A stretch of 46,452 nucleotides of DNA from Candidatus Aenigmatarchaeota archaeon (GCA_021163205.1 JAGGXF010000021.1:1-46452), one strand, 5' to 3'. Positions 1 through 26,135 are shown, numbered from the stretch's first letter. Notes: generated from the letters alone by a model not told the origin. Program-made: numbers and translations.

Positions 1-2446
1 AAGTTTTCACAATTGTTTCATTTATTCCCACGACACTTTGTGTTCCAGACTCTTGGTCAGAGGATGTCCAGTTAGAAACAGAAACTAGGTTAACATCCTC
101 GGCAGGGCCATAAGAATCGCTGACGGTGTAAAATACGAAAGACGCATTTCCAACTACATTGAAAGTATACGAAGAACTAGACCCAAGATTTCCGAGAGAA
201 TCGTTGGCCCATATTTTATAACTATAGGTACCTTTCTGCCAAGTATTGGAAAAATTATATTGATACCTATCTTCGGATATGTTGATCATTGTAAAGTTTT
301 CTTTGTTGCTATTCGGATATGTTATCTCAAGATTAACTACATCTATCCCATTATCTTCGGGGTCTGTAACATTTGCCTCTATAGTTATATTCTGATCATA
401 GCCAGTGGGATCAGGAGAATCCTGAATATTTGAAAATGTTGGTGGGTTGGTATCTGGTCCGTAAGTGAAATAAACCGTATTTGATTCTCGCATAGCCCCT
501 TCTGTATCGTTGCAATAAAAGATTATATTGTGTTGCCCTTCTGACAATCCCGAGACATTGGAATAGAAGTATGTTAAGTTGTATCTTGTCATAGATACAT
601 TTGCGTTGCCATCCAGAGAATAGCCACACCAATCTCCTGACTCGTCTAGACTAACATTTGCCCACACCCAGTCTTTGTCGTAGGTACGATTTGTGGGAGA
701 TATTATAGTTATATATGGAGCTTTGTTGGTAACATTTACCCCCCTGGTCGTGGGGGAATCATAAGACGACGGGTTATTCGCTGTTATCTTACAGCCGACC
801 GTATATTCATTTCTATCTCTACCCGTTACATTAAAAGTTCTTGTTGTTGAAGAACCTGCCGACATAGAAGATATCGAATAGTTACTAACATTTGTGTAAA
901 GTGGACTAGCCGAGCTAGTATTCATGGTTGTATTTGGTGTACAAGTCATGCTTCCTGAACAATAACGAACATATACAACTATGTTGTCACATGTTGTGTC
1001 CTCATTAGTGCAGTTAATTTGACACTCTAACTCAAAGGTGTCGTTCTCTTCCACGTTTATATTTGTCGTTGGTTTTGTCAAATCTACGGTGGCGTTAGAA
1101 ACATCGTTGTAATGTACTTGCAACCAGATTCCATCGTATTCAACTACATCCCACCAGTCGTTGTTGTCTGTACTCGTATCGTCAAAACCGTGTGTTTCCA
1201 GTCTTGTTCTTAGATCATTGTTGTTTTGTGTAAGCCCGTTTAGGATGTTAGTCCAGTCTGGACTATTACTATCCCATGTATAAGATTGGTTTCCAGCTCC
1301 ATTTAGATCAGTCCACCAGTCTCCATCATATATGGTGCCCATGCCGGAGTCTGTGTCTGTCCCAAGCGAGCACCGTGCCCTTGGGAAGCCATCTCCGGTA
1401 TTTCCATCTACTGTATTTGATGTGAAATGAACAATACATTTGATCCATGTTATTTCTATGTCAGAACTATTTGGTGTGAAGTTAAAGTCAACAACATCCT
1501 GATAGTCTGTGGTCAGCACTTTATTCTGTGGACTGCCACCATTGTAAGAAGATAATGTAACCGTCCCTGTTTCATAGTCAGTGCTGTACCATGTTTCTGA
1601 GCCTGTGTGTATTAACATACCGAGACCAAACTCACCTGTTTTAGTTATGGTAAGGGGTGGGTTTACAAACAAGAACGCTGTTGTTAGCATAAATAAGGAT
1701 ATTGCAACAGAAAACTTCAGTGGCAATAGCTTCTTTGTGAGAATAAACTGTCTAACAGCCAGACAAGTCGAAGCCACAATAATGACACTTATCACAGCAC
1801 TGTGCCAATAATTGAGACCCGCCCCGCCACGGAGCACGTCAAACGATATGGTGAGGATATTAGGTATTTCTTCTAGGAAGAATCGCCCAAACAAAGGCAG
1901 TGATAAAGACATGAAAGCAGCATACTTAAGCTCAGTCCTGCTGAAATGTAAAACATCTCTAAAAATGTAGTAACTCATTCTTATTACTAAAATAAAAGCC
2001 GGAATCCATGAAAAGTGTATTACAACACCAGCAAGTCTGAGTGTTGGCAATAATAAATGTGGTATGTCCATCAAAGGCATAAGCGCCCAGACGACCCACA
2101 GGTGGAGAACAGCTCTTTCTATCTGATGTAAACCTACCTTTTTCTTGAACAGCCGAGCTATGAAATAAAAACCAAGACTGCCTACGATCCACAAACCAAG
2201 TGAGTAGGCGGCATGGGTAAGGAATGCATAAGGTGCATATATCTCTAGAAATATATTGTCTCCGCGTACGATAAATACGTGAAGGATAAGCCAAATGCAA
2301 CCCCAGAAGAGCATAAATGGGGTGATTAATAAGTAGTTTAATTTTTTGTTTTTAATGTGCTGAAAAGCCGAGCTCGGAGTAAAGAAAGGTAACAACAATT
2401 TTTTGATAGCTTTATTTGCATTAATTTTCTTCTTGTTGTTTTTCAT
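1..2446 (-). CDS. Large membrane/surface protein, partial (C-terminus beyond left edge): about 6-7 TM N-terminal region (Yip1-like start) followed by Ig-like extracellular modules
   Basis: Manual reverse-strand translation gives an open frame from ATG at 2446 (MKNNKKKINANKAIKKLLLPFFTPSSAFQHIKNKKLNYLLITPFMLFWGCIWLIL...) to base 1 (...YTVSDSYGPAEDVNLVSVSNWTSSDQESGTQSVVGINETIVKT). It is not in the ORF track because it has no stop in the window. Start overlaps the upstream stop (ATGA, 2443-2446). Confidence 0.85.
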   Translation of the reverse strand, partial: MKNNKKKINANKAIKKLLLPFFTPSSAFQHIKNKKLNYLLITPFMLFWGCIWLILHVFIVRGDNIFLEIYAPYAFLTHAAYSLGLWIVGSLGFYFIARLFKKKVGLHQIERAVLHLWVVWALMPLMDIPHLLLPTLRLAGVVIHFSWIPAFILVIRMSYYIFRDVLHFSRTELKYAAFMSLSLPLFGRFFLEEIPNILTISFDVLRGGAGLNYWHSAVISVIIVASTCLAVRQFILTKKLLPLKFSVAISLFMLTTAFLFVNPPLTITKTGEFGLGMLIHTGSETWYSTDYETGTVTLSSYNGGSPQNKVLTTDYQDVVDFNFTPNSSDIEITWIKCIVHFTSNTVDGNTGDGFPRARCSLGTDTDSGMGTIYDGDWWTDLNGAGNQSYTWDSNSPDWTNILNGLTQNNNDLRTRLETHGFDDTSTDNNDWWDVVEYDGIWLQVHYNDVSNATVDLTKPTTNINVEENDTFELECQINCTNEDTTCDNIVVYVRYCSGSMTCTPNTTMNTSSASPLYTNVSNYSISSMSAGSSTTRTFNVTGRDRNEYTVGCKITANNPSSYDSPTTRGVNVTNKAPYITIISPTNRTYDKDWVWANVSLDESGDWCGYSLDGNANVSMTRYNLTYFYSNVSGLSEGQHNIIFYCNDTEGAMRESNTVYFTYGPDTNPPTFSNIQDSPDPTGYDQNITIEANVTDPEDNGIDVVNLEITYPNSNKENFTMINISEDRYQYNFSNTWQKGTYSYKIWANDSLGNLGSSSSYTFNVVGNASFVFYTVSDSYGPAEDVNLVSVSNWTSSDQESGTQSVVGINETIVKT

Positions 2447-3300
2447 ATCATCCATCCAGCCAAGCCAAATAAGCCATAAATTAAAAATTCATAAGATGAA
2501 TAGACTGGCGACAAGAATGGTCTTGTCGAGCTCAATCTTATTCGAACCAGATCCTTCTCTCTTGTGCACCTTAACGAAAACGTCCTGACAATCGAAAAAA
2601 TTGCAGTAACCAAAAAAATTGGATTGTAAAATGAAAACATAATTGATAAAATAATCGAAATGCACGGAAATACAAATAAAAGGTTCTTTGCTTTTTTCCT
2701 TGGCAACACACGCATCTCCCCAAAACTCTGGTCTACGATAATATGATGAACCTCCATATAACAGGCGAATAAAAATATAATGATAGACAAAAACAAGATG
2801 TTCCTTGTCAAAAACCCAGCAAAAATAAAATAGGATTCTAAGAATAATAGGGTCGCCGACAAAGGCAAGACAAGCCATCCGTATTTTTTGTTCTTTATAT
2901 CAAACTGTTCTGATGAATACACGAACGAAAACAAAACAAGTACCGTTGCCAGTAAAGCAGATTTTATACTGGATAATAAAAACAAAGGCCCAGTTATCAG
3001 CAAAAGAGGCAAGAAGCATAGAGCATGTGCCTGACTGACAGAAATATTTTTCTTTCTTATCTCTTCACCTATGAAACTCTTTTCTTTTTTCGCACTGAAA
3101 AAGTCGTTCAGCGAATAAGCAAACATTGCTATGCCAGCAACAACTATGGAGTTTAACAGAATAAGTTTAATGTATTTATGGACGAACAGGGGTTTGATGC
3201 CAAACATAGTGTACGCTAGAAATGAGTAAAGTGTTGGCTTTATCCAGGTCACCCTATTTTTCCATCCCCTTATCCTGTAGAATCTTAACCAGTCTATCAT
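2443..3300 (-). CDS. UbiA-superfamily prenyltransferase-like polytopic membrane protein, Asp-rich motifs degenerate
   Basis: 285 aa, many hydrophobic helices; 'AYSLNDFFSAKKEKS' in place of NDxxDxxxD and 'IIVDQSFGEMRVLP' in place of the second motif. Confidence 0.55.
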   Translation of the reverse strand: MIDWLRFYRIRGWKNRVTWIKPTLYSFLAYTMFGIKPLFVHKYIKLILLNSIVVAGIAMFAYSLNDFFSAKKEKSFIGEEIRKKNISVSQAHALCFLPLLLITGPLFLLSSIKSALLATVLVLFSFVYSSEQFDIKNKKYGWLVLPLSATLLFLESYFIFAGFLTRNILFLSIIIFLFACYMEVHHIIVDQSFGEMRVLPRKKAKNLLFVFPCISIILSIMFSFYNPIFLVTAIFSIVRTFSLRCTREKDLVRIRLSSTRPFLSPVYSSYEFLIYGLFGLAGWMI

Positions 3301-4928
3301 TTATAATCACCGAAAAAATACGGTCTGTTTTCAAATTCTATAGTCTTGCCATCTATGATTATCACATATCTTCCATAAGCAGTTGGTGTAAGATTAAACT
3401 CGACCATTTTATTCATAGGTAAAAATCCAGCCGTTTTAATTGTGCTCTCTTTTATCTGGTCTTGCTTAGAATAGAGACCAAAAGACCAAAGCAGACAACT
3501 TATATATGTTGGGTGGATATCATAGGTTTTTCCTATTGTCTTCGTCTGTAGAGATAACATTATTTTGTTCATAAGTTCTTCATCATAGTTGAGATGCATC
3601 ATTATACCGGCACCGAAAGAACGATAAAAGAAGTTATTCTCAGTCATTTTCTGCATGATCCAAATAGTGGCTTTTTGTAGCGAACCAGTATCATTTATTA
3701 TACCTTTCTCAAGACCGCCTTCTAATGCCAGAGCAGCGTAGGCCGTGTTCATGAATTTAAGATTGTCTGTTTTTCCGTCCCATGAACCGTCTTCTATCTG
3801 AACAGTAACTAGAAAATCTAGTGCCTCTTTTATATTATCTTCTCCTGCGTCGCACCCAAGAAGCGCGAGTGTGTTTAGAATCGTGGACCGTAAAGCGGAA
3901 TCTCCTGAACCCCAAGAACCGTCTTCATGCTGATCGTTTATTATATGCTGAATGCCTTGCTCAATGAGTCTTTCGTTAATTGTTATGTTCTTTTTCTTTG
4001 CGAGACACATATCAACCAGGTACATCTCAGGCTTTTGCCAAAAATTCTTTTCTTCTTCGTCCAGAAGCCTTTCTATGAATTTTATCTGCTGCTCGGTTTG
4101 ATTATCTAGCACTTCAAGAAGAATAGAAACCATTCTTGAGTCTCTATACACATCAATTATTTCTGTATCATTTTCATTTATGACCTGGTTTAATAGAGCA
4201 GCCGTATCGACAGGTATTTTTCTTGGTGGGATTACATTTATGTTTACAAATTTTTTATTTGTTTTATCCTTGATGACAACCTTTCTGCCTTCTCGAAAAA
4301 TCTCGATGTTGTCGACTTTTCTCAAATAAAACTTATTTCCGACTTTTCTGGGCACTATTAAATTTATCTTATCAATCACAAAATCCATAATCTTATCAAA
4401 GCCCAAACGATCCAAAAATTTCTTTGCATCAAACGTAGTAGTTTCTTGCTCTTTTTCTGTTTGTTCTGTTTTATTTTCCTCTGTTTTTCCTTTTTCGGAC
4501 TCTTCTGAAGTTGTGTTTACTTGGGTGGTGTTGTCTGTTGCTATGACCGGTTCTTCTTCGGGACTACCAACGAAAAATTCTTTTCTAACCTCATTTTTTC
4601 TGTTTTTGAGCACAATTAGATACCTACCTTTTTTTGGGAACCCCTTTAAAAATATAAAGTAATGACCAGTGAAATCTGATAATGCTAGCTTTTCATATAA
4701 TTTTCTATCATCTTGGTTAAATATTGTCAGGTTAAAGATGGATCGGGGCTTGCTCTGAACAGTTATGAAAATGTTTTCACTTGGTTCGTAATAATCCTTG
4801 TTAGTTTTTATCCCAAGTCCTTTGTTATCTACCATAACACAAAAACATATGTTTGCTGAAAAAACAAAAACTAGGAACACCAACAAGAATGTTTTTTTCA
4901 AGACTCTATTTTTTGAATCAAATTTCAT
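3297..4928 (-). CDS. Secreted protein: N-terminal A2M-MG-like beta domain plus C-terminal alpha/alpha-toroid (prenyltransferase/squalene-oxidase repeat) domain
   Basis: Signal peptide-like N-terminus; 'NKDYYEPSENIFITVQSKPRSIFNLTIF...DFTGHYFIFLKGFPKKGRYLIVLKN'; QW-type repeats 'DEDGSWGSGDSALRSTILNTLALLG' and 'QIEDGSWDGKTDNLKFMNTAYAALALEGG'. Confidence 0.75.
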   Translation of the reverse strand: MKFDSKNRVLKKTFLLVFLVFVFSANICFCVMVDNKGLGIKTNKDYYEPSENIFITVQSKPRSIFNLTIFNQDDRKLYEKLALSDFTGHYFIFLKGFPKKGRYLIVLKNRKNEVRKEFFVGSPEEEPVIATDNTTQVNTTSEESEKGKTEENKTEQTEKEQETTTFDAKKFLDRLGFDKIMDFVIDKINLIVPRKVGNKFYLRKVDNIEIFREGRKVVIKDKTNKKFVNINVIPPRKIPVDTAALLNQVINENDTEIIDVYRDSRMVSILLEVLDNQTEQQIKFIERLLDEEEKNFWQKPEMYLVDMCLAKKKNITINERLIEQGIQHIINDQHEDGSWGSGDSALRSTILNTLALLGCDAGEDNIKEALDFLVTVQIEDGSWDGKTDNLKFMNTAYAALALEGGLEKGIINDTGSLQKATIWIMQKMTENNFFYRSFGAGIMMHLNYDEELMNKIMLSLQTKTIGKTYDIHPTYISCLLWSFGLYSKQDQIKESTIKTAGFLPMNKMVEFNLTPTAYGRYVIIIDGKTIEFENRPYFFGDYK

Positions 4929-4938
4929 TTTTATTACC

Positions 4939-5328
4939 CTACAATTTTTTGCAATTATTTATTGCTTCAGATTTTTCGGTCTCAATACAAATATAAGCAA
5001 TTACACTGCCTGTTATTGTCTTTATTGGCCACTTGCCGACCTTAACAGCCATCACGTGGATACCGTTTTTATTTTTTTCTAGTACCCGAATCCCCTTTGG
5101 CAATACTAAAAATACCTGGCCAACTGGATTTGCATTAAATAATATTGTTGCCTCTTCACCTATTCCCATCGCATAATTATTTCCCACTTTTTCTGCTGCC
5201 GGTATATCAAATCCCCTCAAAGAAAATCCGAGAAGCAACACTGCTAATATTAACAAAAATACTATTACTATAACTAACAACCTGGTTTTCATTCCAATTC
5301 TACTTGATTTCTTCTTCATATAAGCCAC
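4939..5328 (-). CDS. Small membrane-anchored extracytoplasmic protein
   Basis: 129 aa, one N-terminal TM (RLLVIVIVFLLILAVLLLGFSL), starts 7 nt after the giant ORF ends. Confidence 0.65.
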   Translation of the reverse strand: MAYMKKKSSRIGMKTRLLVIVIVFLLILAVLLLGFSLRGFDIPAAEKVGNNYAMGIGEEATILFNANPVGQVFLVLPKGIRVLEKNKNGIHVMAVKVGKWPIKTITGSVIAYICIETEKSEAINNCKKL

Positions 5329-5334: not shown

Positions 5335-8300
5335 TTATTCTCCAGTTGCGTTGCCCATTATCCATATAGTGCCTTCGTAATCGCCTTTGTAAAGGCCGGG
5401 TGGAAGATCTAACCAGTAGTATGTAGTCACATTTGTTCCGGATGGTGTAAAACCTTTGATTTGAACCCAGTCATAATCTAGGGCGGTTTCTGTAGATATG
5501 TCATTCGTGGTCGAGGCAGACATGTTTGTAACACCGATATAATAATTCCCCCATGACTCAGTTGTCAGGTTCATGTCCGTGCCTTTTATGTACAAACCCT
5601 CAACATTGTTTGAATTCGGGTCGATTGTTATATTATATTGATTGTTGTCATTGCCCAAAGCACTGATGTTTTTTGTCAACGGCTGAGAACTACCAAAATC
5701 TATGTAGTCGAATGTTAAGCTAAGTATGAGCACAATGCCTATCTCTACGGTATGGTTTTCTGTATGGTTGGTCAATGAATACGTGGTCGAATTAAACTCA
5801 ACATCTATTTCATAAGCATCTGTAAGATTGCCCGTGCTGTTAATTGTCCAGGTAAGCGTGCAACTCGTGCCGTTGTACATATACTCAGGACAATGCTTTG
5901 TTTGATTATCACCGATTATAAAGAATGGAGTCGTGCCACTAGTGTTTGATATATATGTATCTGGCAAAGATGATGAAGCATTGTAGCGTGGAGTTCCTGT
6001 AACATAACCACATTCTCCTTCGAGGCACTGGACAGTTGCATTTATTACGAATGTCCTGTTCTGCGGGACTATTTGGTTGTCAAGAGGGGTTGCTAAACTT
6101 GGACTAAGATAACCGATTTTCGTTACATTGAATACAGAGTAGTCATAAGAGCCCGCGTTTTTCTGCGTTTCATTTGCCAAAAAGTATACAGGTAACTGCT
6201 CATCTTGTGAGGAGGTTGCGTTGAACACATAATTAAAAGTGGCTGTCTCCCCTTTCTTCAGAGTTCCGCCCAAAGTCGTGTCCCATGTGACGCGACCATC
6301 AGACCAGTTACCACCTGTACGGTTGGTTGTGCCTATTGAATACCAAACATCTGTGCCATTATCGATTTGCCAGTTGCTGTTTAGCCCTTCGTGGTAGACG
6401 ATATCTGTTGAGTCGATGTTCCACGTTGAGCCACCATCGTTTCTCACCTTTATCTCGACTCTGTATTGATAAGAGCCGTTGGTAACAAAATTAAATGTTT
6501 TGTTCAACCCCGAGTCAACCAGATCACCGCCTACATGCGTATTTGGAAGCCCGGTGACGTTATAAATTTTTATCTCGGTTATATTAGGCAATGGTGATGA
6601 CTGACCGCCACCAAAAGCATCGAACCTTGTAACGTTGAACCAGATATGTGTTGAATTCTCCTGAACATTATAATCTGCTGTATCGTTGACCTCCCAAGAA
6701 GAGCAACTACCTGCTGTAAAGTTCCAGTCTAAACAATGTAGTATGTTAGTGATATTAAGCCCTTTCTTGGGTATTACTAACATCGCGTGGTCATAACTAA
6801 GGCCAGAATCGTTGAGCGCAAAAATGCTAGTTACATTCTGAATCTTGGGCGGTATTGTCCCAGTATAGTTCTCAATAGTCTGTGGTTGCAGGCTCATATT
6901 TTCTGTTATGTTCAAATCTATAATTTTTGCTGTTAAGGTGTTCTGAACAGGCACAACTATTTCTACGGTATAGTTCTGATTTAGAGCCAGCTCGTCTGTT
7001 AACGTGTCGTCAGATGATGTTATGGTCTTATTAGAAACGACCTCTCCGAGATCGTCTATTATTGATATTATTGTGTTCTCGAATGTTGACGACGAATTTA
7101 TCACTGTTATGTTCACCTCTCTCGGTTCATACACGGAAAAGTTTCTCGTGTCCGACCACACAAGGTTCGCCCCATCGCTACAAGAGATTTCCCACACATG
7201 TTCGCCCAACGACAAGCCACTAGCAGCAAGGGTTGTCTCTGTTGCATTTAAAACAGATGAATTGGTTTGCTCGAGTCCGTAATCTACATATAGTGAGCAT
7301 GTCAGTGTAGAAGCAAAATTGTCTGTAACGTTGAACGTAAAATTTAATGTCGTGTCTGCTGTGTACATACCATTAAGCGGAAGAGAAAGGTTTATTTCTG
7401 GTGATACCGTGTCCACCACAAACACATAACTTTTATTTATCGGCTCGCCAGCGTCATCAGTAAGAACATTTTCATTTGAATCTGTCAACGCAACGTAAAT
7501 CTTATAATATCCTGTAGTTTGCGAGTCTGCATTCCATGGATTCTGATTATAAATAGAGCCAATGTTGAGGTAATCTCCGGAATTTATTACCCTTTTTGTC
7601 CCTGTGCTTGTATCGTTTATTTGCGTTGCTATAATTTCTCCTGTGTCATTTTTTTGCACTTGCATCAACAGATAGCCAGAAATATTGGTTGTACCTGTGT
7701 TGATTATTCTTGAGTTCTCTTCTTCATTTCCAACATTATAAATAGGTTCTGGCCAAATATGTTGTCTCATTTGCTTCCAACCCAAAAGATTTGTCTCGTC
7801 TCCGTTGCTGTCTTCCTCGTAATAAGGCCAGACTGGCTTGGTGCACTCCACCTCCCATCGGCCAGAAACATAAGTGTTATCATTTCCACAACCAAAACAA
7901 ATCTTATAGATTCCATTACTGCCGCTTGCAGAAGATGTTGCGACAACATCTCCAGATGAGTTATAAACAGTACAACTTGTGTCTGAATATGGGGTTGCTA
8001 TAGCAATATATTCTGCACTTAGAGAAGAACCAAACTTTGTAGTCATTTCTTTTATCGGGGCAAAAATTGTTGATTCTGTTCCGTCGTGGTCTGCTTGTTG
8101 TATAACTCCAATGGGATTAGAACCATTGATGACAAATGCCGGAGCTGAACCACTGTTTCCTAAGCTACTCAATTGATAATCTTCGTTAGCCGCTATGCTT
8201 GTATCCGTAGTCGCACCGGTATCACTGCGTGTGTATGTTATGTTCGCCCCGCTTGGTCCAGCAGCTGCTATCAAGTAGTTGCTTGGCACACCATACAAAG

Positions 8301-11300
8301 CTTCGGTGGTCGGTGGTAGCATTGAATATGCATCGTTTCCTGCGGAACCATAGTACGAAACAAGAATTGGTCTGTTGCTCACTATTCTTAGACCGGTATC
8401 GTCCGTAGCATCGAAAGTAATACATGTTCCTGTTGAGTTTACGGTTTCTGACCATTGCTTAGTCCCTGTGACATATATTGCTACTGACGCATTTCCAAAT
8501 GGAGCAAGCATACAAAACGTGTCTGATGAGTCTCTGAAACCGTCGTAGATAAACTCTGTTCCAGCCCATGAAATAGGAACAATCATGTCATCGATGTTAC
8601 CAGAACCCTCTATTTGAGCCAGGCATTTTGCCTTTATTGTTGTGTTTTGAGATAGACCAGATGATATTGTGGTTGATTCTAGCTCGTTAAGAGTATAACT
8701 ATTCGAACCAACTTGGATTTCATTGTTATCACACAAGCTCATAATTGACAAACCATTGCTCACAATCTTGTCGCTAGTTACATAACCAATAAGTCTCGGC
8801 TCTGAGTAGGAAAATGTTTCTGTTATGTTTGAGTCTGTTTCTGCATTTGGATTACCGTAGTACATATACACGATTGTATCAGAATTTGCAGGTATTGTTG
8901 GGACCTTTACCCAAATAGTTGAATTTTTTCCATTAATGTTACACTCTTCGATCCAGTACGGGATTTTTATTTCATTACCCGAAGAAGAATTGTACCAAGT
9001 AAATCTTAAGTCTTGGCAAGTTGTATTTAGCTTTCCTTCCTCATAAAGTTGTGTTAGATTTTCTTTTAGCTCGATCTGATATTCTTCCAATGGTGTTGAA
9101 GTGGGGTTGGCAACGTCAATCTCTTTTCTATAGCTCCAGTATCCGTCCCACCAGTGCTGTCCCTGAAGATAAACATTCTCGGAAGGTCCATAAATATCTT
9201 TGCTTGTTTTCAAAGCCATCGAAGCGTTTGCTCTTATGTAAAACTCATCTGGTTGAGAAGATGTGTTATTAACAAGCCCGGCTGTATTGTTTGTCCATAT
9301 CCAATAAGAATAATTACCCCACTGCCACAACGAAGATAGCACAGCCTCATACGTGTTTCCCAGTCCAGAGTAAACCATATTCAACCATTGCCACGTGTTA
9401 TCAGGAAAACTTATATTTACCCTGGCCAAATCTATCTGAACCCTACTCCAAATGTCAGCAAAAATGCTGACATTCTGTCCATAGCCAGTTGTCTGTGGCT
9501 GCGCTGAAACATTTTCTATTATGATTAAATCACTAACATCTATTGCCAGACTATCATTATAGCTTGGGTTCGTGTAAATAGATGAAGAACCTGAATATGT
9601 TGCGTTAATTATGTTGCTACCAAGACTGGCATTGTATGGTATTGTCGTGAATAAAACAGCATAGCCGGTGGAATTTGTAGTGTTCGATCCTAGAGTCAAC
9701 CCATCGAGTTTGAAAACTATTGTTTCACCTTCCACAGCAGAGCTGTTGTCATAAATAAGTCTTGCTTTTAGCTCTACTGCCTCGCTTCTATATGGGTTTG
9801 AATTGTTTATCCAAACATACGGCATCGATGTGTTTGCATATACGGTTACCGTTTTTGTTTCCCAGTCCGGCGCTTCCTCATCAGATTCCGATTTCAATTG
9901 GATTTGTTGCTGCCCCAGACTGGCATTAATAGAAACGTTCGCTGTTATATTGTTCCATAATATTTCAGATGGTCCGAGACTAGAGCTAAATACACTTAGG
10001 TTGCCGGTTTGATTTGTCCAATTAGACGGTAAACTCCAGTTTAGCCATAGATTATTTGTTGTGTCATCTGTGTTGTTCACATAACCTTTCAAATCCACCA
10101 GAGAATTTCTTGTTATGGTTGTTTTATATTCTGTAACCGTTACCCTCAGATGAGTTGGGCCGCGAACACTCAAAACCTGTGTTTGCTGGTTTGACCACGC
10201 CCTCTGTTCGTTGCCTGGGTTGTAATAGCTAACATTCACATTAATATCATAATCAGCCGGCGTTGTCGAGGAATTTGTTGTTATGTTAAATGATGCTGTT
10301 TTGCTATAACCTGGGGTTATATTATATAACAAGCAATATCCGTCCTGGTTTTCTTGTCCGCCCAAAGAACAATTACATGTCATGTTAACAGGACAATTGA
10401 TTGTGATGTTAACATCTGTTATATTTTTAGACCAAGGATTCGCTACCGTGAAATTATATGTGGAAGATTCATTCTGCACGATTTTATCCGGATATATAGC
10501 TGACGAAAAATTATCTGCGAGTTTATGAACAATGAATGAATAGCTTGTATTTTCTGATGGTGGTGTTCCACCTCCTGTCCAGTTGATTGTTATGTTCCAA
10601 CTATATGTGCCATGCATCGCGCTCGGAGGAATTATATAACCATCGGAGTTATTATTAAACTGCACCTCGCACAATTCACCCACGTTCACAGAGCCACAAT
10701 CTTTTGTTTCGTCTGGCCCCCAATTAACTTTCTGGCCGTCAGAGTCAATTATGTTCAGCGTCACGTTAACGGTATAAGCTGTTGCTCCTCCTGTATTGTT
10801 GACTGTTATGTTTATCCAGGATATTTTATCTCCTGACTCGTATTCATTTATGGTATATGTATAATTATTCTGGTGTTCTACTTCTGAGACACTCATTTTT
10901 GGCACCAATATTGTCACAATGGTGTGCGCCTCGTCATTACTTGTGGTGTTGTAAAACAAGGTCGAGTTGTCTTCTATTGTACAATTTACTGTGTGTGGGC
11001 CACCATCTAGCCCAGATGTGTTCCAGTGATAAACAGCATAGCCTGTTGAATTGGTGTTGTTTGTTCCCAACTCATTGCCATTATGCCAGAATTTAACAGG
11101 ATAGTCTTGAATTGCCTGGGTTGTGTTGACGTCTTTAACGAGGCATGTTAGGTTAACGATCGTACCTATAGGATAACTCCCATCATCAGGCGAAACCCAA
11201 GTTATGTTCGACCACCCATAAACTGTCCAAGTATTTGTTGTCCCATTGCCAAGATTTCCCGCAGAATCATTTGCGTAGACTGTAAAATTGTAAACTCCTA

Positions 11301-16787: not shown

Positions 16788-17810
16788 TTAGCCCATCGGA
16801 TTTTTGTACATGTTTTTATATCTGATGAGCGCCAACATTGCCATGGTTGTGGCATAAATATCCTCTTTTTTCTCAGTACCTACAAAATAACCCCCATTCC
16901 AGCTTCCGTCTGGCCGCTGTTTTTTTATTAGCCATTGAACTCCCTTCTCGATTCTCTTTTTACATTTCTCATTTTTTTCACATGTATCTGAAACAAGTAA
17001 TGTGTTCAAGGCCAGAGCCGTTCTCAACTCTTTTGATGGCCTGCCTTTGGCTGAACTCCCCCAAGAACCGTCTGAATTTTGTGTACGCAAGACAAAGCCA
17101 AGGGCTTTTTCTATAATCTCATTTCTATCATAAAGCTCAGCAGCCCATACATCAACATAAGTTGCGTAATACGGTGTATCATAATACATAGGTGAACTCC
17201 CCCAAGAACCGTCTTCTAGCTGTGTGGACGCAATAAAGTCAAGTGCTTTAGTTATATTAAAGGTTATATGTTTAGTATTACTACCTCCGTCGGTTAGCGC
17301 AAGTGCGACAACAGCGTACCCAGTGACAGAAGGAAATCTTTTATCTACTATGATAAATGGCGTACCTATTTCCCAATATCCTTTCACATTCTGCTTGTTA
17401 GCGAGAAAGTTTCTTGTATCGCTAATGTTTTCATCCACAAGATTGAGAGCAATTAAAGAAACAGCTGTTGTTTCAATACAATAGTCTTCTTTTGCTGTTG
17501 TTGTCATATAAAAACTACCATTACTCCGCTTAACAATATTAAGAAAACGCACCGACTTATTAATTGTTTCATTGTAATAAGATTTGTCTAAAAGTGACAG
17601 CACGACAACAGCATTGGCCGTGTCCCAAATCTTGAACATAGAATTGTCTGACAATGATATGGAACCGTCTTTGTTTTGTTGGCCAACCAGCCACCCAGCA
17701 GCGCTATTCATGGAAGTTGTGGTATTAATTGTGGCTTGCTGATGAAGAATGAAAATGATAAAAGTAATCAACAGAATAAAAAGCAGCGGATGAGTTATTT
17801 TCTTTTTCAT
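16788..17810 (-). CDS. Secreted alpha/alpha-toroid protein (squalene cyclase/prenyltransferase-type QW repeats)
   Basis: Repeats 'WLVGQQNKDGSISL', 'STQLEDGSWGSSPMYYDTPYYATY', 'RTQNSDGSWGSSAKG', 'KKQRPDGSWNGG'. Preferred start is internal ATG at 17810 (MKKKITHPLLFILLITFIIFIL), not 17927. Confidence 0.8.
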   Translation of the reverse strand: MKKKITHPLLFILLITFIIFILHQQATINTTTSMNSAAGWLVGQQNKDGSISLSDNSMFKIWDTANAVVVLSLLDKSYYNETINKSVRFLNIVKRSNGSFYMTTTAKEDYCIETTAVSLIALNLVDENISDTRNFLANKQNVKGYWEIGTPFIIVDKRFPSVTGYAVVALALTDGGSNTKHITFNITKALDFIASTQLEDGSWGSSPMYYDTPYYATYVDVWAAELYDRNEIIEKALGFVLRTQNSDGSWGSSAKGRPSKELRTALALNTLLVSDTCEKNEKCKKRIEKGVQWLIKKQRPDGSWNGGYFVGTEKKEDIYATTMAMLALIRYKNMYKNPMG

Positions 17811-17957
17811 GATGTATAATATCCTCAGAAAGGAATAAAAGATTTCTTTATGGAAAACAGAAAAAAGAAAAATAAAAAAGAAAATTGTCCCCCACCCATC
17901 TCGAAACAAAATAAAATCAAGCAACATTAACTTGAGTCGTCGGCTCAGTTTTTGTTT

Positions 17958-20513
17958 TTATCTCTTCTTATTTGGCCTATAATTGTATTTAAATTCGTGT
18001 GATATTCTGGCTTTCAAGTTTTGCATCTTTTGAATAGTATCTTGTCTTGCGGGTGTACGCCTTGGCAGCGCACCAGTCAGGCGTGTGAGATTTGGCAAAC
18101 CACCCCTTTCACTTCCTTTTTTATACTTTATGAGGAACCCAAATGCGACAATGATAACTATTAGAATAATCCACCAGTTCGCATTTATGAAGGCTATAGG
18201 AGATGTTATCAAAGCTATCAGTACTGCCGGTACCCCAGCGATGGCCGTAAAGAAGCCCGTCGGTGTCTCTTTCTCCTGACTTTGCTCTGCAGGTAATTTT
18301 TCGAGGAGTTGCACAGTTAATGTTGTCTGAGCCTGAGTTTCGGCAGACTGAGCAGCTATATTTATGAGATAAAACTTCTTACATTCATGTGATGCACAAT
18401 AGCCTTTTGGTATGAAAAATCTTAGCTCCACATTTATAGAGTCGTCGGGATTCATCTGAGAAATGCTAGTAGGGATTATCTGATACCACTCTGGTGGCAC
18501 CCCGTCTACTCCAATGGTTATGTCAGTGAGATTTGTCTGCCCCGTGTTTTTAACAGTTATATTTGTTGATATGGTTTTTCCCTCTGCGATATCAATCGTT
18601 TCTGGGGCTAAAAGAGATAGTTCTGTCTTTCTCGAAAGCTCTAGAAAAACAGAAGATTCGGCAGGTAGGAAAGGCTCTTTTTCGCATCGCATGGAGAGTT
18701 TTGCCGAACCTTCGTGCATCGGAGCCTTCACGTTGATCATAAAGAAGCCGCCTATGTCAGTCTTTGTTGTTTCGTTGGTCGAGCCAAGCGAATATTCAAC
18801 AGTGGCGCCTTCCACCGGATTGCCGTTCGAGTCAAGCACCTTGCCTGAAATAGAAACCATTTCACCCATAAAGTAATTTTTCTTTGGTATAGTAACATCA
18901 AAGTGTAGAGCCTTTCTTTCACCTATGACAAACGACGAAAATGAAGAGACATTGAATTTTACTATATTTCTTGTTGTGTCTACGACTGGATTTTCTATTC
19001 TTTCCCAGCTATCAGAACACGACCTCCTATCAAAATTCCAATTGTGGCATGTATAAACCTCTATCCGTTGTTCGTCTGTCACTTTAGAGGCATCGTAATA
19101 TATTTCCAGATCTGCGGAAGAAAATTTTATTTCCGGAGATAGCTCAAGAACAACTAAACTCGCAACAGATATCCCTGGAATGTCTGCCTCTCCAGAGAAT
19201 TTGTCAAACCTTATTGCATCTTCGATACCATTCTCAATATAAACCCCATTAAGCGTTGCTAAGAGGGTATCAAACTGCAAAATAAGGGTATAGTTACCTG
19301 GCAATATGGAAGCAGAGTACTCCCCAAGCTCATTGGTGCTTATCTGCTTTACCTCCCCATCCTTTATAAGTTTTATTATCCCTTTCACAGCATGATTATC
19401 TGCATCAACTATCTTTCCATGGAATGGGAGTATGAACTTAATTGGGCTTTTTGCTTCCACAACAATTGGAGACAAGACATTGTAGTCCATTGCTAAGAAC
19501 AGCCTATACGAACCTGGTTCAAATTGAGGCAGCTTGGCTGTCACAACACCCGTCCCCGACTGGGTGTTATATGAAAAGTCACTAATTTCAAGATTGTTGG
19601 TTTTCTCCCCATTTTCATTCATGAGATAAACATAGAAATCTGACTGAGAAATATCCTCTATGATATTTTTATTATAAAACGCGGAGAAATGTATCTTAAG
19701 CGTTCCGGCTGTTGAATACTCTAACGGGGCTCCGTCATTTACATCGAGTATTTCAAGGTCTAGTGGTGACTGTATTTTCACGACGTTTCTCTTGATTATT
19801 TTATAATTGTGTTTAATCCCAGCATCAAAGTACTCCACTTCTATTATAAGGTTGTATAATATATCTGTGTCAAGACTTGAATAGTCATAATTCACAAATG
19901 GTTTCAGAAGAAACCGCTTGGTGTTCTGGTTAAAGCCAACCGGCCCAAGACTTAGCTGATACTTCTGCCCAAACTGTTCCAAATAAACCTTAAAAGTTGG
20001 GTTGGTTGCGGGTTCTTTTAGATTAGATTCCACAAAAAGCTCCGCTTCTATCGGATTTTCAAATAGCTGTCCGACATACACCGCATATGGTGGGTTGCTC
20101 TCTGGTAAAACCACATCACCGGTTAGCCTTTTGACATTAAACATTCTCTGTACGGTATCTGTTGTCCCAGCATAACTACATGTTATGTCTATGCTGTACG
20201 AACCTGGGTCTGCAGTCTGGTAAGTCAAAGAAAAGACATCATTCTCTGAATCATAAACAAAATCTATTGGCTGGTATGTCACATCCTTGTGCGTCACCAC
20301 TCCCCGAACCGCGAGATTGGAAGAACTTGTGTTTGCTTCGGTACATTTTACAGAAATAACGATATTGGCGGGGGAATACGTGTTTTCCCCTGTTTGCTCT
20401 ATCCAAGGGTTTGGAGTAATCTGTACATCGCTGATCTGAACAGCACTAACAATACTCACCAGTAAAAGGATTGCTCCAACGACGATATATTGCTTTTTAA
20501 CCATTAGCATCAC
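17958..20513 (-). CDS. Secreted, C-terminally membrane-anchored surface protein with Ig-like and carboxypeptidase-regulatory-like domains
   Basis: Signal peptide 'KKQYIVVGAILLLVSIVSAVQ'; 'GKVLDSNGNPVEGATVEYSLGSTNETTKTDIGGFF'; C-terminal TM 'NANWWIILIVIIVAFGFLIKYKKG' with basic tail. Confidence 0.8.
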   Translation of the reverse strand: MMLMVKKQYIVVGAILLLVSIVSAVQISDVQITPNPWIEQTGENTYSPANIVISVKCTEANTSSSNLAVRGVVTHKDVTYQPIDFVYDSENDVFSLTYQTADPGSYSIDITCSYAGTTDTVQRMFNVKRLTGDVVLPESNPPYAVYVGQLFENPIEAELFVESNLKEPATNPTFKVYLEQFGQKYQLSLGPVGFNQNTKRFLLKPFVNYDYSSLDTDILYNLIIEVEYFDAGIKHNYKIIKRNVVKIQSPLDLEILDVNDGAPLEYSTAGTLKIHFSAFYNKNIIEDISQSDFYVYLMNENGEKTNNLEISDFSYNTQSGTGVVTAKLPQFEPGSYRLFLAMDYNVLSPIVVEAKSPIKFILPFHGKIVDADNHAVKGIIKLIKDGEVKQISTNELGEYSASILPGNYTLILQFDTLLATLNGVYIENGIEDAIRFDKFSGEADIPGISVASLVVLELSPEIKFSSADLEIYYDASKVTDEQRIEVYTCHNWNFDRRSCSDSWERIENPVVDTTRNIVKFNVSSFSSFVIGERKALHFDVTIPKKNYFMGEMVSISGKVLDSNGNPVEGATVEYSLGSTNETTKTDIGGFFMINVKAPMHEGSAKLSMRCEKEPFLPAESSVFLELSRKTELSLLAPETIDIAEGKTISTNITVKNTGQTNLTDITIGVDGVPPEWYQIIPTSISQMNPDDSINVELRFFIPKGYCASHECKKFYLINIAAQSAETQAQTTLTVQLLEKLPAEQSQEKETPTGFFTAIAGVPAVLIALITSPIAFINANWWIILIVIIVAFGFLIKYKKGSERGGLPNLTRLTGALPRRTPARQDTIQKMQNLKARISHEFKYNYRPNKKR

Positions 20514-20559: not shown

Positions 20560-21336
20560 CTAAAATCCTCTGAGCTTTTCTAGGAGGCGCTTGAAGAATA
20601 GATTTCGCGGCTCTTGGAATGCTCTATTTGTAAGGTAATGTGCCAGTCTCCTAAATTCTATGGAAGGCTTTGAATAAGGACTGTATTTGACAACAGGCAT
20701 TTCCTCGAAGATGCTTCTCTTTATTATTTTGTCTTCTGGTATTTTCGATATTATTGGTGCTTCACACATTATCTCTATTTCAGCGGGCCTTAACTCGTAG
20801 TTTGTCCCCTGGACACGATTTACAACTATCCCTAAGACATTTTTTTTCAGGTCTCTCGATATTTTTATAACCTTTATTGCATCTGTAACTGATGGCATGT
20901 CCGGATTAGTCACAACAATCACATCATCTACTGCCTCCATAACTGACAAGGCATCGTCTGTGAGACCGGGCGGACAATCGACCAGGACAATCCCTTTCAA
21001 TTTTTTTAAATCCTTTCTGAGCTTTTTGCTGTTTGGTTTCAAACCGGTATAAACGTCATCAACTGATAGTGATGATGGTATTATTGTTAGCCCCATGGGA
21101 TGATGATGAATAGAATTCAGGATATGTTCTTTTCCACTCACAACGTCTTGCAACGAGACGTCAAAAGAAAATGTTCCGAGCTGCACGCCAAGATTGGAAA
21201 CAGTCATATCGGCATCAACAACAGTCACTTGTTCTCCAAGTTCCTGCAAGGCTATTCCGAGATTAATGGCAGTAATGGTTTTTCCAACGCCCCCCTTACC
21301 AGAAACTATACCAATTATCCTACTCAACACTCCCAC
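20560..21336 (-). CDS. minD: MinD/ParA-family ATPase
   Basis: Deviant Walker A 'GIVSGKGGVGKTITAINLG', 'VVDADMTVSNLGVQLG', 'VLVDCPPGLTDDALSVMEAVDDVIVVTNPD'; amphipathic C-terminus. Start may be GTG 21330. Confidence 0.9.
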   Translation of the reverse strand: MGVLSRIIGIVSGKGGVGKTITAINLGIALQELGEQVTVVDADMTVSNLGVQLGTFSFDVSLQDVVSGKEHILNSIHHHPMGLTIIPSSLSVDDVYTGLKPNSKKLRKDLKKLKGIVLVDCPPGLTDDALSVMEAVDDVIVVTNPDMPSVTDAIKVIKISRDLKKNVLGIVVNRVQGTNYELRPAEIEIMCEAPIISKIPEDKIIKRSIFEEMPVVKYSPYSKPSIEFRRLAHYLTNRAFQEPRNLFFKRLLEKLRGF

Positions 21337-21401: not shown

Positions 21402-22217
21402 TCAGTCCCTTCTTTTGGGTCTTTTATTCAGCTTTTTGACTACGATCACTCCTATGACAAAGCCCACGACGGCATATAATGGGGTGACGTCTCTGGGCTC
21501 TTTCAACCTTATGGTCTTCTTAGCATAATATTTTCCGTCTTCTGACACAATTTCTAGCGTTATCGGCTCTTCTTTCCAGTACTCCGCATAATAAGAAATG
21601 GTATCTATTATTTTATCTTGCGTGGGTTCGAGTTTTTTTGACTCGAAATACCACCCCATTGGATATTGCGAAGGTATGACCACTAGCGGCGGTAAAGACT
21701 CCACACCGCGCTTTTTTTTCACGTTTATTCTAATCATGTCTTTTGTGTTTGATATGGATATGCCTGCTATATCTTCTAGAGATGCTCTTGTTTTGTTCGT
21801 GCCTATAGCCGAGAAATTTATCTCTTTTATTTTTTTTGATTCATAACATTGATAAGCAGTCAACACTACGTGATAGTTTCCATCTTCTTTTGGAAGCCAG
21901 TATATGTCAAAGGTGTCATAAGCACCCGGCAACATAATCTTTTCTTGGCTCCACCCAGTATAAACAACGGCATCGTCTTTCAATATGTCTGCCCTTATCT
22001 TCACCTTACAACTAACTGAACCGCTGTTCATCCATTCTGTATAAATGTGTTCATATGTGCCATTAGTTATGTTATCGAAGTACAAGTACTCTGGGTACCC
22101 CTCAATTTTTCCGGTGATGTCGACATTAACTTCTGTTGCTGGCGTTGGAATTGAAAGAATCGCAAGCATCAAAAAACCAAAAGATACGGCAAGATATAAA
22201 CGCAGGGATTTAGACAT
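21402..22217 (-). CDS. Secreted, C-terminally TM-anchored beta-rich protein
   Basis: Signal peptide; C-terminal 'VTPLYAVVGFVIGVIVVKKLNKRPKRRD'; upstream GAGGTGAGAA Shine-Dalgarno-like. Confidence 0.7.
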   Translation of the reverse strand: MSKSLRLYLAVSFGFLMLAILSIPTPATEVNVDITGKIEGYPEYLYFDNITNGTYEHIYTEWMNSGSVSCKVKIRADILKDDAVVYTGWSQEKIMLPGAYDTFDIYWLPKEDGNYHVVLTAYQCYESKKIKEINFSAIGTNKTRASLEDIAGISISNTKDMIRINVKKKRGVESLPPLVVIPSQYPMGWYFESKKLEPTQDKIIDTISYYAEYWKEEPITLEIVSEDGKYYAKKTIRLKEPRDVTPLYAVVGFVIGVIVVKKLNKRPKRRD

Positions 22218-22342: not shown

Positions 22343-22927
22343 CTATGAGGCATAAAGGGCCGGAATTAAAAAGTCATACTTCGGTACCTTTATATTAATG
22401 TCTACCTCACCGGTATAATAGCCGGTACTGGTTTTATTTCCTGTTATATTCAGCACAACTCTTATTTCTGGGTTTTCCCCTGGCTTGACTATTATATCGT
22501 TTTCGCTTAATTTGATAAATCTGGAGATATTTCCATAGCTTGATATTTTAACTTTCACGGGTCTCTTACCATTGTTGGGAACTGACAAAAATTTAGTCAC
22601 AACTGGTGTCACGTTTAGTATTATTCTACCAAAATTAAACCTATCTGTATCAGAAGATACCCCGATATTCAGCTTTGTTAGGTTCTTTTGCTTTATGACT
22701 AGAACCTCTGCCGGGTACCTGAACAAAATTGTTTCAAAAAATATACCTTCTCTTTGCTCTTTAGACATATTAACGGCGAGCGTTGTTGGCTCTTTCTCAA
22801 CACCAAATAACTCTATCAAGAAAACAAGTGTTAAAAAAACAACCAGCACAAAAAAGAATAGTAAAAATCTATTTGATTTTTTCTTTCTTCGTCGCTTGTC
22901 TTTTTTCTTCTTTGCTTTTTTTTTCAT
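22343..22927 (-). CDS. Membrane-anchored beta-rich surface protein
   Basis: Preferred start ATG 22927 (MKKKAKKKKDKRRRKKKSNRFLLFFFVLVVFLTLVFLI) with upstream GGTGAG; extracytoplasmic beta domain. Confidence 0.7.
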   Translation of the reverse strand: MKKKAKKKKDKRRRKKKSNRFLLFFFVLVVFLTLVFLIELFGVEKEPTTLAVNMSKEQREGIFFETILFRYPAEVLVIKQKNLTKLNIGVSSDTDRFNFGRIILNVTPVVTKFLSVPNNGKRPVKVKISSYGNISRFIKLSENDIIVKPGENPEIRVVLNITGNKTSTGYYTGEVDINIKVPKYDFLIPALYAS

Positions 22928-22932
22928 CAATC

Positions 22933-23928
22933 TCACCACTTCCAATAAACCAGGAGTAATACGAATAACACAATTAACACAACCAGCCACCAAGGGAATT
23001 TAGATGGTTTTGGTGGCAGTGTGGCTTTTATCGCCTTTGGTATCTCGAGGTTATATCTTTCAGATATAGTCCCTGTCGAATAGTCTACCACAACTTTTGC
23101 CGTGTACAATCCAGGTTCTATCTTATCGCTGCGCCAGAAAACAGACAATATTCCTGTTGTTTTTGGTGGAATCTTTTTGTCACCGCCTTTTAGCACGGTC
23201 ACTATGTTGTTGTCCTTGTCAAAAAGTTTTAGCTCCTTTAATTTTGCTGTCATTGTGACTGTCCCTGTGTTTTGGAAGACCACGTCAAACCTGGCAATAT
23301 TTTTCATCTCTCGTTCGGCGAAAATATTGACAACTTTTCCCTTTCTTATTGCTGGTTCCGGTATAACATGAAAAACAAAATAAAATCTTGTTATTCCTAT
23401 GGTCGAGACCGATGTTCCGCCAGAAGGTGTTGAAGATATTTGAGGATTCAGGTTTATAGCGCCAACATGATATCCTGGCTCTGCGTCTTTTGGGACCTGC
23501 AATATGAACTCAACATCAGCATTTGCACTGACGGTTTTTCCCGACGGAAGTCGAACAACAATCCCCGGTGATTTTGACGATATAAAAACCGGATTCTCTG
23601 GAAATGTTACCCAGTCAATTACTGACTCCTCTGATGCGTTTTTTGGGATAAATCCGTCTGCACCATTTTTCATAAACAATCTTAGATGGGGGTTGGTAGA
23701 AGATAATTGAATAAGCATGTCACTTTCTGCATTGGTCAATATATAGAACATACCTACAACACGTTCACCGGGTTTAACGTCCCCGAGATTCAGAAGGCCC
23801 GGAGCAGTTCCAACAGAAAGAGCCAAAGAAAAATTAGACAACAACAGAGTTATGACTAACGCTTTGACTATCGCTCTAAAACAAGATGACAAAAATGGTG
23901 ATGTAAATGATTGTTTATCCCTCTTCAT
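22933..23928 (-). CDS. DUF916/DUF3324 (WxL-interacting-protein)-like secreted protein with C-terminal TM
   Basis: Signal peptide; 'GTAPGLLNLGDVKPGERVVGMFYILTNAESDMLIQLS...', 'YHVGAINLNPQ', C-terminal 'FPWWLVVLIVLFVLLLVYWKW'. Confidence 0.6.
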   Translation of the reverse strand: MKRDKQSFTSPFLSSCFRAIVKALVITLLLSNFSLALSVGTAPGLLNLGDVKPGERVVGMFYILTNAESDMLIQLSSTNPHLRLFMKNGADGFIPKNASEESVIDWVTFPENPVFISSKSPGIVVRLPSGKTVSANADVEFILQVPKDAEPGYHVGAINLNPQISSTPSGGTSVSTIGITRFYFVFHVIPEPAIRKGKVVNIFAEREMKNIARFDVVFQNTGTVTMTAKLKELKLFDKDNNIVTVLKGGDKKIPPKTTGILSVFWRSDKIEPGLYTAKVVVDYSTGTISERYNLEIPKAIKATLPPKPSKFPWWLVVLIVLFVLLLVYWKW

Positions 23929-24174: not shown

Positions 24175-25110
24175 CTACTCGACTCCGGCAGCAACAAGAG
24201 TCAACTTTCCTGTTATACTTCCATGTGGTGTACCATAGGGTACAACAACACGAACATTCAACACCATCGTGTCTCCTGGATTAAACTTGGTTGTTCCATC
24301 TGCGAGCAGATCTTGGTAAGAACACCCCCCTTCTTCTCCTGGAACATCCAAGTTATACTTGTAGAATATCGCATGATCACATGTTGACGCGATAGCCATG
24401 CAATATTTATATCCTTCTATTGTTACCTCTGCCAATCCCCAATCCGTGTAGTTTCCACCTGCATTAGACATGTTGTAGTATGTATAATCAGAACCTGTTG
24501 AAGTGAAATCTGTCGTGCCCGTCGATGAAGAGTTGTGCGGCGTTTTTGCTATTCTGACATCGCCCTTTGCAGCATTAGCATCCGTGTCATTACATAATCC
24601 ATTTGCTCCTGGGTTCACAGTCCATATAAATTCATGGTAAGATCCTGTTGAAAAGTTAGCTGTTCTAAATCTACCATATTTCCATCCGCTGTCAAACGAA
24701 GCAAAAGGAAGTGTCGAGGATTCATTCCACTCGTGCCTATTTACATAAAAATATGCCCAGGATGCGTTTGTTTCTCTCTTAAGAACAACAAAATTTCCAG
24801 CATCATAGCTGCTTGTTAAACCAGAACCGAAAGGTCGGCTTGTTGGGTGGGTTGTATTTAACCATAAATATGTTATATTAGTGGAACCAATGTTCTCAAT
24901 AAAAAGGTCCTTTTCACTTCCAATTTCTCCCGGGTTTAGATTGCTCCAGCTCAATGAATCTGGCGTAAAGTCTATTTGTGTGACAGTCCCGACGGTAACG
25001 GTTATATTAACCTCCGATGTTGTATTTACCGTGGGTATTGCAAACACAGAGACGGACAAAAATAACAGACCTGAAATAATGAAGATAATGCCTCTTAGTA
25101 CATCATTCAT
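24175..25110 (-). CDS. Small secreted surface protein, TasA/camelysin-like architecture (possible structural subunit)
   Basis: Start ATG 25110 preceded by GGAGGG; signal peptide 'GIIFIISGLLFLSVSVFA'; 'TQIDFTPDSLSWSNLNPGEIGSEKDLFIENIGSTNITYLWLN'; C-terminus 'VVPYGTPHGSITGKLTLVAAGVE'. Confidence 0.65.
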   Translation of the reverse strand: MNDVLRGIIFIISGLLFLSVSVFAIPTVNTTSEVNITVTVGTVTQIDFTPDSLSWSNLNPGEIGSEKDLFIENIGSTNITYLWLNTTHPTSRPFGSGLTSSYDAGNFVVLKRETNASWAYFYVNRHEWNESSTLPFASFDSGWKYGRFRTANFSTGSYHEFIWTVNPGANGLCNDTDANAAKGDVRIAKTPHNSSSTGTTDFTSTGSDYTYYNMSNAGGNYTDWGLAEVTIEGYKYCMAIASTCDHAIFYKYNLDVPGEEGGCSYQDLLADGTTKFNPGDTMVLNVRVVVPYGTPHGSITGKLTLVAAGVE

Positions 25111-25152
25111 GACTATTCCCTCCAAAATGACTGCTATCTATTTTTTCCAGAG

Positions 25153-25235
25153 AGTGGTATATAAAGTTTGTGGTCTTTTCTCATTGTTTGATTTATCCAA
25201 ATAATCATTTGAATAATTAAAATCAAATGAGACCA
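25153..25235 (-). promoter_or_regulatory. Putative promoter (CTTTATATACC TATA box) with adjacent imperfect inverted repeat
   Basis: Minus-strand TATA near 25155-25167; CTCATT(GTT)TGATTT at 25180-25194 versus AAATCAAATGAG at 25220-25231. Confidence 0.45.
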
Positions 25236-25432
25236 TATAGTTGCGTCCCAGAACTAATTTCAGCGTTATTTATCAGGGCTACGAAAAAATAATAAATGAT
25301 AGAAGTTGTGGCGCACGGTTATTTTGTTCGGTTTTGTTTGATGCGTCCTCTGATACATGGCTATAATTTCTTTTATCTTGTTTCGATAATTTGTATTGAG
25401 TGAGCTTTTCATCAGAATATTGCCATTCTGTT

Positions 25433-25918
25433 TCATTTAGACTGCTCATAAGATGAAAGATCTTCTGGACAAAGTATTGTTGACTTATACCAAGCTGTGA
25501 CGCGCGTGTTATTAACCGGCTTCACTTTTGATATAACTGAGACAGAATCAGTATCATTACATATGTTCCCGACTCTTATAGTTATTGCCCTGTTTGCAGA
25601 TATTTGACTAAAACTTATGTTGTTGTCATCTTTGAAGGTGTTCACCGTTCCATAAAATTCATTGTCTTTGTATATCTCGATATCTGTCGTGTTTATTGTA
25701 TCAATTCCTGTGTTTCTCAAAACAAGAAGACATCCATTCTTATTTAGACAGTCCCCTATAAGTTCGGCATCTATTTTTCCGAATTTTTTTTCCACAGTTA
25801 TGACTTTCCTATCTTTTACTGTGTATCCTACGAAAAAACCGAGCAAAAAGGTTCCGAAAAATATAATCGCAAAAAGAACAAGAACCAGAAACAATCTCTG
25901 TTCGTTTGACTTTTTCAT
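25433..25918 (-). CDS. Small membrane-anchored extracytoplasmic protein
   Basis: Preferred start 25918 (MKKSNEQRLFLVLVLFAIIFFGTFLLGFFVGYTV). Confidence 0.6.
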   Translation of the reverse strand: MKKSNEQRLFLVLVLFAIIFFGTFLLGFFVGYTVKDRKVITVEKKFGKIDAELIGDCLNKNGCLLVLRNTGIDTINTTDIEIYKDNEFYGTVNTFKDDNNISFSQISANRAITIRVGNICNDTDSVSVISKVKPVNNTRVTAWYKSTILCPEDLSSYEQSK

Positions 25919-26135
25919 GCAAATCACAAACAACCAAAAAATACAAAAAATAAAAAGTAATGGGAAGATAGAAGAATTTCTTGGAGGAAATAGTCTTCTG
26001 AAGACCACACTCTTCCCATTACCAGTTAAAATATAGTAAAAAACCTTTTAAAAGTTGGTTTTTTCGTTTTTCACCACTCTCACGGAAATATTTTTACAGA
26101 AATATTTCGTAATTTTTAATTCTGTTTGGTTTCTT

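Follow-up and report, generated by a model that had tools for sequence, protein, structure and literature searches.

Whether a run of secreted and membrane proteins encoded side by side in a DPANN archaeon makes up one surface apparatus is the question raised by a locus in Candidatus Aenigmatarchaeota archaeon (GCA_021163205.1, JAGGXF010000021.1:1-46452). This 46,452-nucleotide stretch, hereafter the window, makes up contig C26; the genome to which it belongs spans 811 kb and is 91% complete. An earlier note on this DNA had read positions 1-26008 as an undescribed, co-expressed surface apparatus, and its observation that every credible coding sequence from 26008 to the left edge lies on the minus strand was confirmed: 13 co-oriented genes fill the interval, and nearly all of their products have a signal peptide or a transmembrane segment, with a MinD ATPase among the exceptions. 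Because minus-strand genes extend beyond 26008, with housekeeping genes (Mrr-like nuclease, phosphoglycerate mutase, PGK and GAPDH) as far as 32121, strand alone sets no boundary there. Comparison with relatives singled out six genes, T (a TasA-like putative subunit), A (a WxLIP-like membrane-anchored protein), B, C, M (MinD) and D, as a conserved core. We put at about one in two the probability that, in this core and a neighboring giant adhesin-like protein, the genome carries its copy of a conserved surface-assembly system of DPANN archaea in which a strand-complementation platform would assemble T and display the adhesin.

The core is delimited by its gene order. About 50 loci from Aenigmatarchaeota and Nanohaloarchaeota keep T-A-B-C-M-D, with protein identities of 20-40%, and the arrangement recurring around matches of A consists of T (0-4 copies), A, B and C, followed by M and D, either of which may come first. 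Immediately after A comes B in 46 of the 50 A-containing loci, and C comes after A-B in 47/50, an adjacency that is much more than chance. D lies no more than seven genes past A in 25/27 loci, while M is near A in 23 of 27 and T in 27 of 37. A search with A gave matches in 17/59 relatives, and an A profile matched 58 of 156 phylum genomes (35 of them strongly) and 9 of the 28 genomes of a nanohaloarchaeal set. T was found in 39/156 phylum genomes, with one to four copies each, and D in 37 at E<=1e-80. Without correction for phylogeny, the 35 genomes with A and the 39 with T share 33 (Fisher p about 1e-25 over the 156 genomes, counting genomes with T encoded far from A), and the 35 with A and the 37 with D share 31 (p about 1e-22); over A/T, A/D and T/D the p values range from about 1e-25 to 1e-17. 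Pairwise distance matrices of all six core families are also correlated, most strongly for A-T (r=0.83, shared ancestry not removed). The earlier note had staked its proposal on conserved co-occurrence in related genomes, and this was clearly found; that the core genes form one system is well supported.

Conservation does not extend to the full gene order predicted earlier, which had included two toroid proteins, a UbiA-like protein and a small transmembrane protein, since the UbiA-like protein had 0 matches among 58 relatives and the MG-toroid had partial matches only, in the sister genus only. Copies of p191 and of the first toroid were present in the sister genome only (L022/L038), whose contig ends inside the giant, so that comparison with the sister reaches no further left. 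The toroid, the UbiA-like protein, the 129- and 191-residue proteins and the edge protein are genus- or species-restricted. The UbiA-like and toroid proteins were accordingly rejected as core members, and membership of the two small proteins in the apparatus gained no support either. The UbiA label itself comes from a single weak match (BchG, E=1e-4, far below cut-off), and Pfam gave no match. We do not claim spread to Altiarchaeota, for which there is a single metagenome-assembled genome named Altiarchaeales (L041) and where T was not found.

Two variants of the locus were also seen. In one family (L027, L031, L066) the core has no adjacent T, with T copies elsewhere in those genomes, and is preceded by an approximately 700-residue protein with eight or nine transmembrane helices and four small single-transmembrane proteins, whose family is unassigned. 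In another (L096 and L097, family f11) MinD and D are kept, and A and C are replaced by an approximately 400-residue protein with two transmembrane helices that scores against both.

Sequence families say little about these proteins. NCBIfam matched no family in T, A, B, C or p191, and Pfam recognised no more than general features of the window proteins: D has CarboxypepD_reg and NPCBM-associated domains, the giant has DUF2341, M falls under MinD/ParA and the toroids are of squalene-cyclase type. Because PDB sequence-profile searches gave no match for T and spurious matches or none for A, fold comparison was needed, and AlphaFold models of both were built from alignments of the window and database relatives. 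The best PDB fold match of the T model (pLDDT 86) was the TasA fibre 8aur (Foldseek probability 0.95, E 6e-3), with the other listed matches at a probability of 0.35 or below, and T is thus predicted to have a TasA-type beta-sandwich fold. Residues 22-50 lie after the signal peptide; they lack a strand in the monomer model and tend to alternate between polar and hydrophobic residues across the family, which fits a donor strand without proving one. T has a high sequon density and occurs in up to four tandem paralogues at a locus. For the A model (pLDDT 88) the best matches were the Enterococcus faecium WxLIP structures 9i25 and 9i1y, one of which is a complex with WxL (E 1.9e-10); the matches also included the Csu pilus chaperone. 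As modelled, A has the architecture of a WxLIP, with two tandem immunoglobulin (Ig)-like domains followed by a C-terminal transmembrane helix. The Pfam families that define WxLIP were nearly absent from A (DUF916 in 0/39 members and WxLIP_HBD in 1/39 at E 0.0013), and Pfam found no WxL domain in T, the giant or the other scanned neighbors. The first domain of C and the second Ig domain of A are homologous (hhalign 94.9%, E 5e-8). Fold searches thus bear out the TasA-like and WxLIP-like labels that the earlier note had assigned.

In the genome of the window, contigs C10 (L086, right end) and C38 (L087, right end) both break inside T genes, and the neighbor order in the sister (L088) suggests that they adjoin, with an assembly break at tandem T paralogues.

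The giant carries a signal peptide, no later transmembrane helix, three DUF2341 domains and 197 N-glycosylation sequons; DUF2341 was the only Pfam domain above cut-off, and no ATPase or protease domain was found. Its inclusion in the apparatus stands for the last 280 or so residues, while the body is lineage-specific. Eleven other proteins of the loci, 278 to 1646 residues long, match residues ~3480-3759 with their C-termini, and this GC domain is C-terminal in 12/12 aligned proteins and makes up the whole of the smallest relatives (278 residues). At E<=1e-50 it was detected in 30 genomes of the phylum, where the reading frames run to about 4300 residues, and it repeatedly forms the C-terminal end of the adhesin-like proteins adjoining the core, which vary greatly in length. 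A docking domain shared by adhesins of 278 to more than 4000 residues would be expected to look like this, with one end conserved and the rest of each extracellular protein variable. Aligned by hhalign, the GC domain scored 41.8% against T, compared with 1.2% against B and 0.3% against A, which is specific relative to these controls but too weak for us to claim homology with T. An N-terminal MG-like domain of some 100 residues is also common to the giant and the MG-toroid, at about 40-50% identity, which suggests that an N-terminal module has been shuffled.

M is an archaeal MinD, scoring 213.8 bits against the NCBIfam model TIGR01969 (minD_arch; cut-off 201.75). Together with most of its relatives, it carries the deviant Walker A motif GKGGVGKT and a basic amphipathic C-terminal tail resembling the membrane-targeting tail of MinD. 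The absence of FlaI and FlaJ reported earlier is true of the window, where no type IV pilus assembly ATPase or platform was found, and membership of the archaeal type IV pili was rejected on this ground; T2SSE-family ATPases are present on other contigs of the genome. Genes for MoxR, DUF58 and vWA/BatA proteins adjoin T or a GC domain on C10 and in the sister, and the same linkage appears in other Aenigmatarchaeota (e.g. L093, L094, L095, L045 and L046) and in nanohaloarchaea. In closed nanohaloarchaeal genomes the core, the adhesin and the MoxR-DUF58-vWA module form one contiguous locus, in the order GC adhesin, ~215-residue transmembrane protein, ~700-residue NPCBM protein, ~540-residue protein, vWA, DUF58, MoxR, T, A, B, C, D and M. 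The missing ATPase of the locus is probably the MoxR of this module.

Taken together, a subunit with the TasA fold, a membrane partner with the WxLIP fold and an adhesin whose C-terminal domain is conserved favor a strand-complementation platform. T would be exported by Sec and then cleaved, and its free N-terminal strand could complement the next subunit to give a thin fibre or a short chain. A, B and C would be anchored in the membrane as a platform for incoming T, probably taking it up by strand complementation in the manner proposed for WxLIP-WxL and used by pilus chaperones. The adhesin C-terminal domain may dock into the same assembly, leaving the Ig/DUF2341 array to project outward, while M would bind the inner face of the membrane and place the assembly, and MoxR with its vWA/DUF58 partners would supply ATP-driven remodelling. 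Attachment to a host or partner cell would be the likely purpose.

Several points weigh against this model. The fold match of T to TasA is modest (TM 0.27/0.35), the Pfam TasA/M73 model matched 0/36 T members, so that sequence-family support is absent, and no equivalent of TapA or SipW was identified. About a quarter of loci have no nearby T, and the similarity between the GC domain and T is weak. The MoxR module of this fragmented genome lies on a contig other than that of the core (C10 rather than C26), and DUF58/MoxR/vWA modules are common and possibly incidental neighbors. The locus is known here from genes and predicted folds, which leaves filament, interactions and co-expression as predictions. 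A bolder version of the model is tentative and, on balance, doubtful: a distinct archaeal filament machine in which a WxLIP-like strand-donating platform, driven by MoxR/vWA and positioned by its own MinD, assembles TasA-like subunits at the cytoplasmic membrane and caps them with exchangeable giant adhesins through a subunit-like C-terminal domain, by which Aenigmatarchaeota and Nanohaloarchaeota would seize their hosts.

The rival that survives best, though we consider it unlikely, is a non-filamentous anchoring platform of WxL type, in which T serves as a small anchoring domain and does not polymerise, with A as its partner in the membrane and with the giant displayed through the C-terminal domain that it carries. 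The bacterial WxL cluster follows the same logic with a small WxL protein, a large protein with a C-terminal WxL and a WxLIP with a C-terminal transmembrane helix (PMC10599100). WxLIP is the best structural match of A and GC domains sit C-terminally, but the best fold match of T is a fibre subunit and T occurs in tandem paralogues. Also, DPANN archaea, to our knowledge, have no peptidoglycan for a WxL-like anchor. Less probable still is that the locus encodes a machine like the one predicted by Makarova et al. 2015, which would secrete proteins in a Sec-dependent way or remodel membranes and for which T and the giants would be cargo. The MoxR-DUF58-vWA(BatA) genes adjoining T/A in several lineages and the extracytoplasmic location of all the Ig proteins (PMC5898192) would suit such a machine. 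However, its defining DUF4350 (arCOG01314) was not found among the scanned proteins although MoxR and vWA are present, T is conserved alongside A as an apparent partner, and the core has no nearby MoxR in many genomes. We regard as very unlikely an accessory of the S-layer or cell coat, with T and D as coat glycoproteins, A-B-C as anchors and MinD serving cell shape or division: the sequon density of T and the giant and the extracellular or anchored nature of every part except M fit a coat, whereas the patchy presence of A (strong in 35/156 genomes) is unlike that of a coat protein and the TasA-type fold of T speaks against it. Finally, a chance cluster of unrelated surface genes can be dismissed, since the accessory genes are indeed lineage-specific but the core order conserved over two phyla and the genome-wide co-occurrence contradict it.

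Features of the locus in the window, with their predicted nature
Feature	Position	Strand	Description
p191	25433-26008	minus	191-residue genus-restricted membrane protein upstream of T; not core
T	24175-25125	minus	secreted TasA-like putative subunit, 316 residues; signal peptide, then free beta-prone N-terminal segment
A	22933-23928	minus	WxLIP-like, two Ig domains and C-terminal transmembrane helix, 331 residues
B	22343-22993 (used from 22930)	minus	N-terminally anchored small beta-sandwich protein, 195 residues
C	21402-22217	minus	secreted/anchored Ig-like protein; N-terminal domain homologous to second Ig domain of A
M (MinD)	20560-21336	minus	archaeal MinD ATPase, deviant Walker A, C-terminal amphipathic basic tail
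D	17958-20513	minus	large membrane-anchored multi-Ig protein, 851 residues; CarboxypepD_reg and NPCBM-associated domains (Pfam)
toroid	16788-17927	minus	accessory alpha/alpha-toroid; Pfam prenyltransferase/squalene cyclase toroid; genus-restricted, not core
giant	5335-16614	minus	secreted adhesin-like protein, 3759 residues
GC domain	5338-6183	minus	conserved C-terminal ~280 residues of giant
s129	4939-5328	minus	129-residue protein; accessory or unrelated, not conserved
MG-toroid	3297-4928	minus	accessory or unrelated, not conserved
UbiA-like	2443-3300	minus	accessory or unrelated, not conserved
X (polytopic-Ig edge protein)	2-2455, cut by window edge	minus	accessory or unrelated, not conserved

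Searches of the window for RNA features and tRNAs found none. A viral origin was rejected, as a relative of A was absent from viral contigs and PHROG gave no meaningful matches, and so was a defence island (0 PADLOC matches). The edge protein X combines several N-terminal transmembrane helices with an Ig-like ectodomain that has a Big_13-type match, making it an unusual polytopic surface protein. Here and in the sister genus the surface locus is flanked by glycolysis/gluconeogenesis genes (27034-32121 and 44078-45923; phosphoglycerate mutase, PGK, GAPDH, FBP aldolase/phosphatase-like and TPI, as named from translations), none of which was present at the loci of other relatives. Translations of 32176-35973 read as a four-gene [NiFe] hydrogenase/sulfhydrogenase-type operon in this 811-kb DPANN genome, with an Fe-S subunit, an FAD/NAD reductase and small and large hydrogenase subunits. 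At 37019-37972 lies a secreted protein with about five ~20-residue repeats of the type YCxxNPxDxxC, possibly a disulfide-rich repeat, for which blast against the sister contig gave nothing at the corresponding position.

The core with its adhesin is a real, conserved DPANN surface system that is apparently undescribed in the literature searched, in which, with few subscription papers or preprints covered, no mention of TasA together with DPANN was found. How ultra-small DPANN archaea grip and exploit their hosts is a long-standing question; alongside type IV pili and SPEARE giants, the candidates usually named, the locus stands as a third. The SPEARE and VirB4-fused giants reported from nanohaloarchaea (PMC6642349, PMC10266531) are likewise Ig-rich and lie on the surface of DPANN symbionts, but the window giant has no C-terminal transmembrane helix, ATPase or protease domain, and SPEARE membership was rejected for want of the C-terminal transmembrane helix and cytosolic VirB4-like ATPase domain. 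The surface-structure section of the Ca. Nanohalococcus occultus SVXNc genome paper covers an S-layer, archaellum-like structures, LamG/PKD proteins and VirB4-fused giants, and within that section a TasA/WxLIP-like locus is not described (PMC10266531); judging by gene number, the giant there (SVXNc_0300) probably belongs to a separate locus.

In bacteria, a small WxL protein, a large protein with a C-terminal WxL and a WxLIP come together in a surface complex, in which WxL is predicted to accommodate a hairpin strand contributed by WxLIP (PMC10599100). The present locus likewise encodes, in one cluster, a membrane-anchored two-Ig protein with the WxLIP fold, a small secreted partner and a large adhesin with a conserved C-terminal domain. 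It differs in having neither a protein with a WxL domain or motif nor peptidoglycan, in a partner that is TasA-like in fold, in the addition of MinD, B, C, D and MoxR, and in the domain of life; if the model is true, it would link Gram-positive WxL/WxLIP logic with archaea. TasA subunits polymerise via an N-terminal donor strand (PMC9674648), and T shares with TasA fibres, archaeal bundling pili and the Sulfolobus thread (PMC9674648, PMC9715654) a Sec signal, a free N-terminal strand, a TasA-matching beta-sandwich and freedom from type IV pilin features, but shows no detectable sequence homology and comes without TapA or SipW. No chaperone or usher could be assigned for the Sulfolobus threads (PMC9715654), for which no counterparts of the dedicated A-B-C-D membrane proteins, MinD and MoxR have been reported, and the locus would, if the model is true, provide a candidate assembly platform for donor-strand-type archaeal fibres. 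The predicted archaeal secretion complex of a MoxR ATPase, vWA and Ig-like membrane proteins (arCOG01314/arCOG02884; PMC5898192) resembles it in having a MoxR-type AAA+ ATPase, a vWA protein, anchored Ig-like proteins and S-layer-like giants, and differs in its DUF4350 component, which was not found here among the scanned proteins; the present locus is centred on T-A-B-C-D-MinD. Finally, the Haloferax proteins MinD2 and MinD4 place archaeal surface machinery (PMC11588486), a role in which M would resemble them, although M, unlike them, is encoded inside the surface locus itself.

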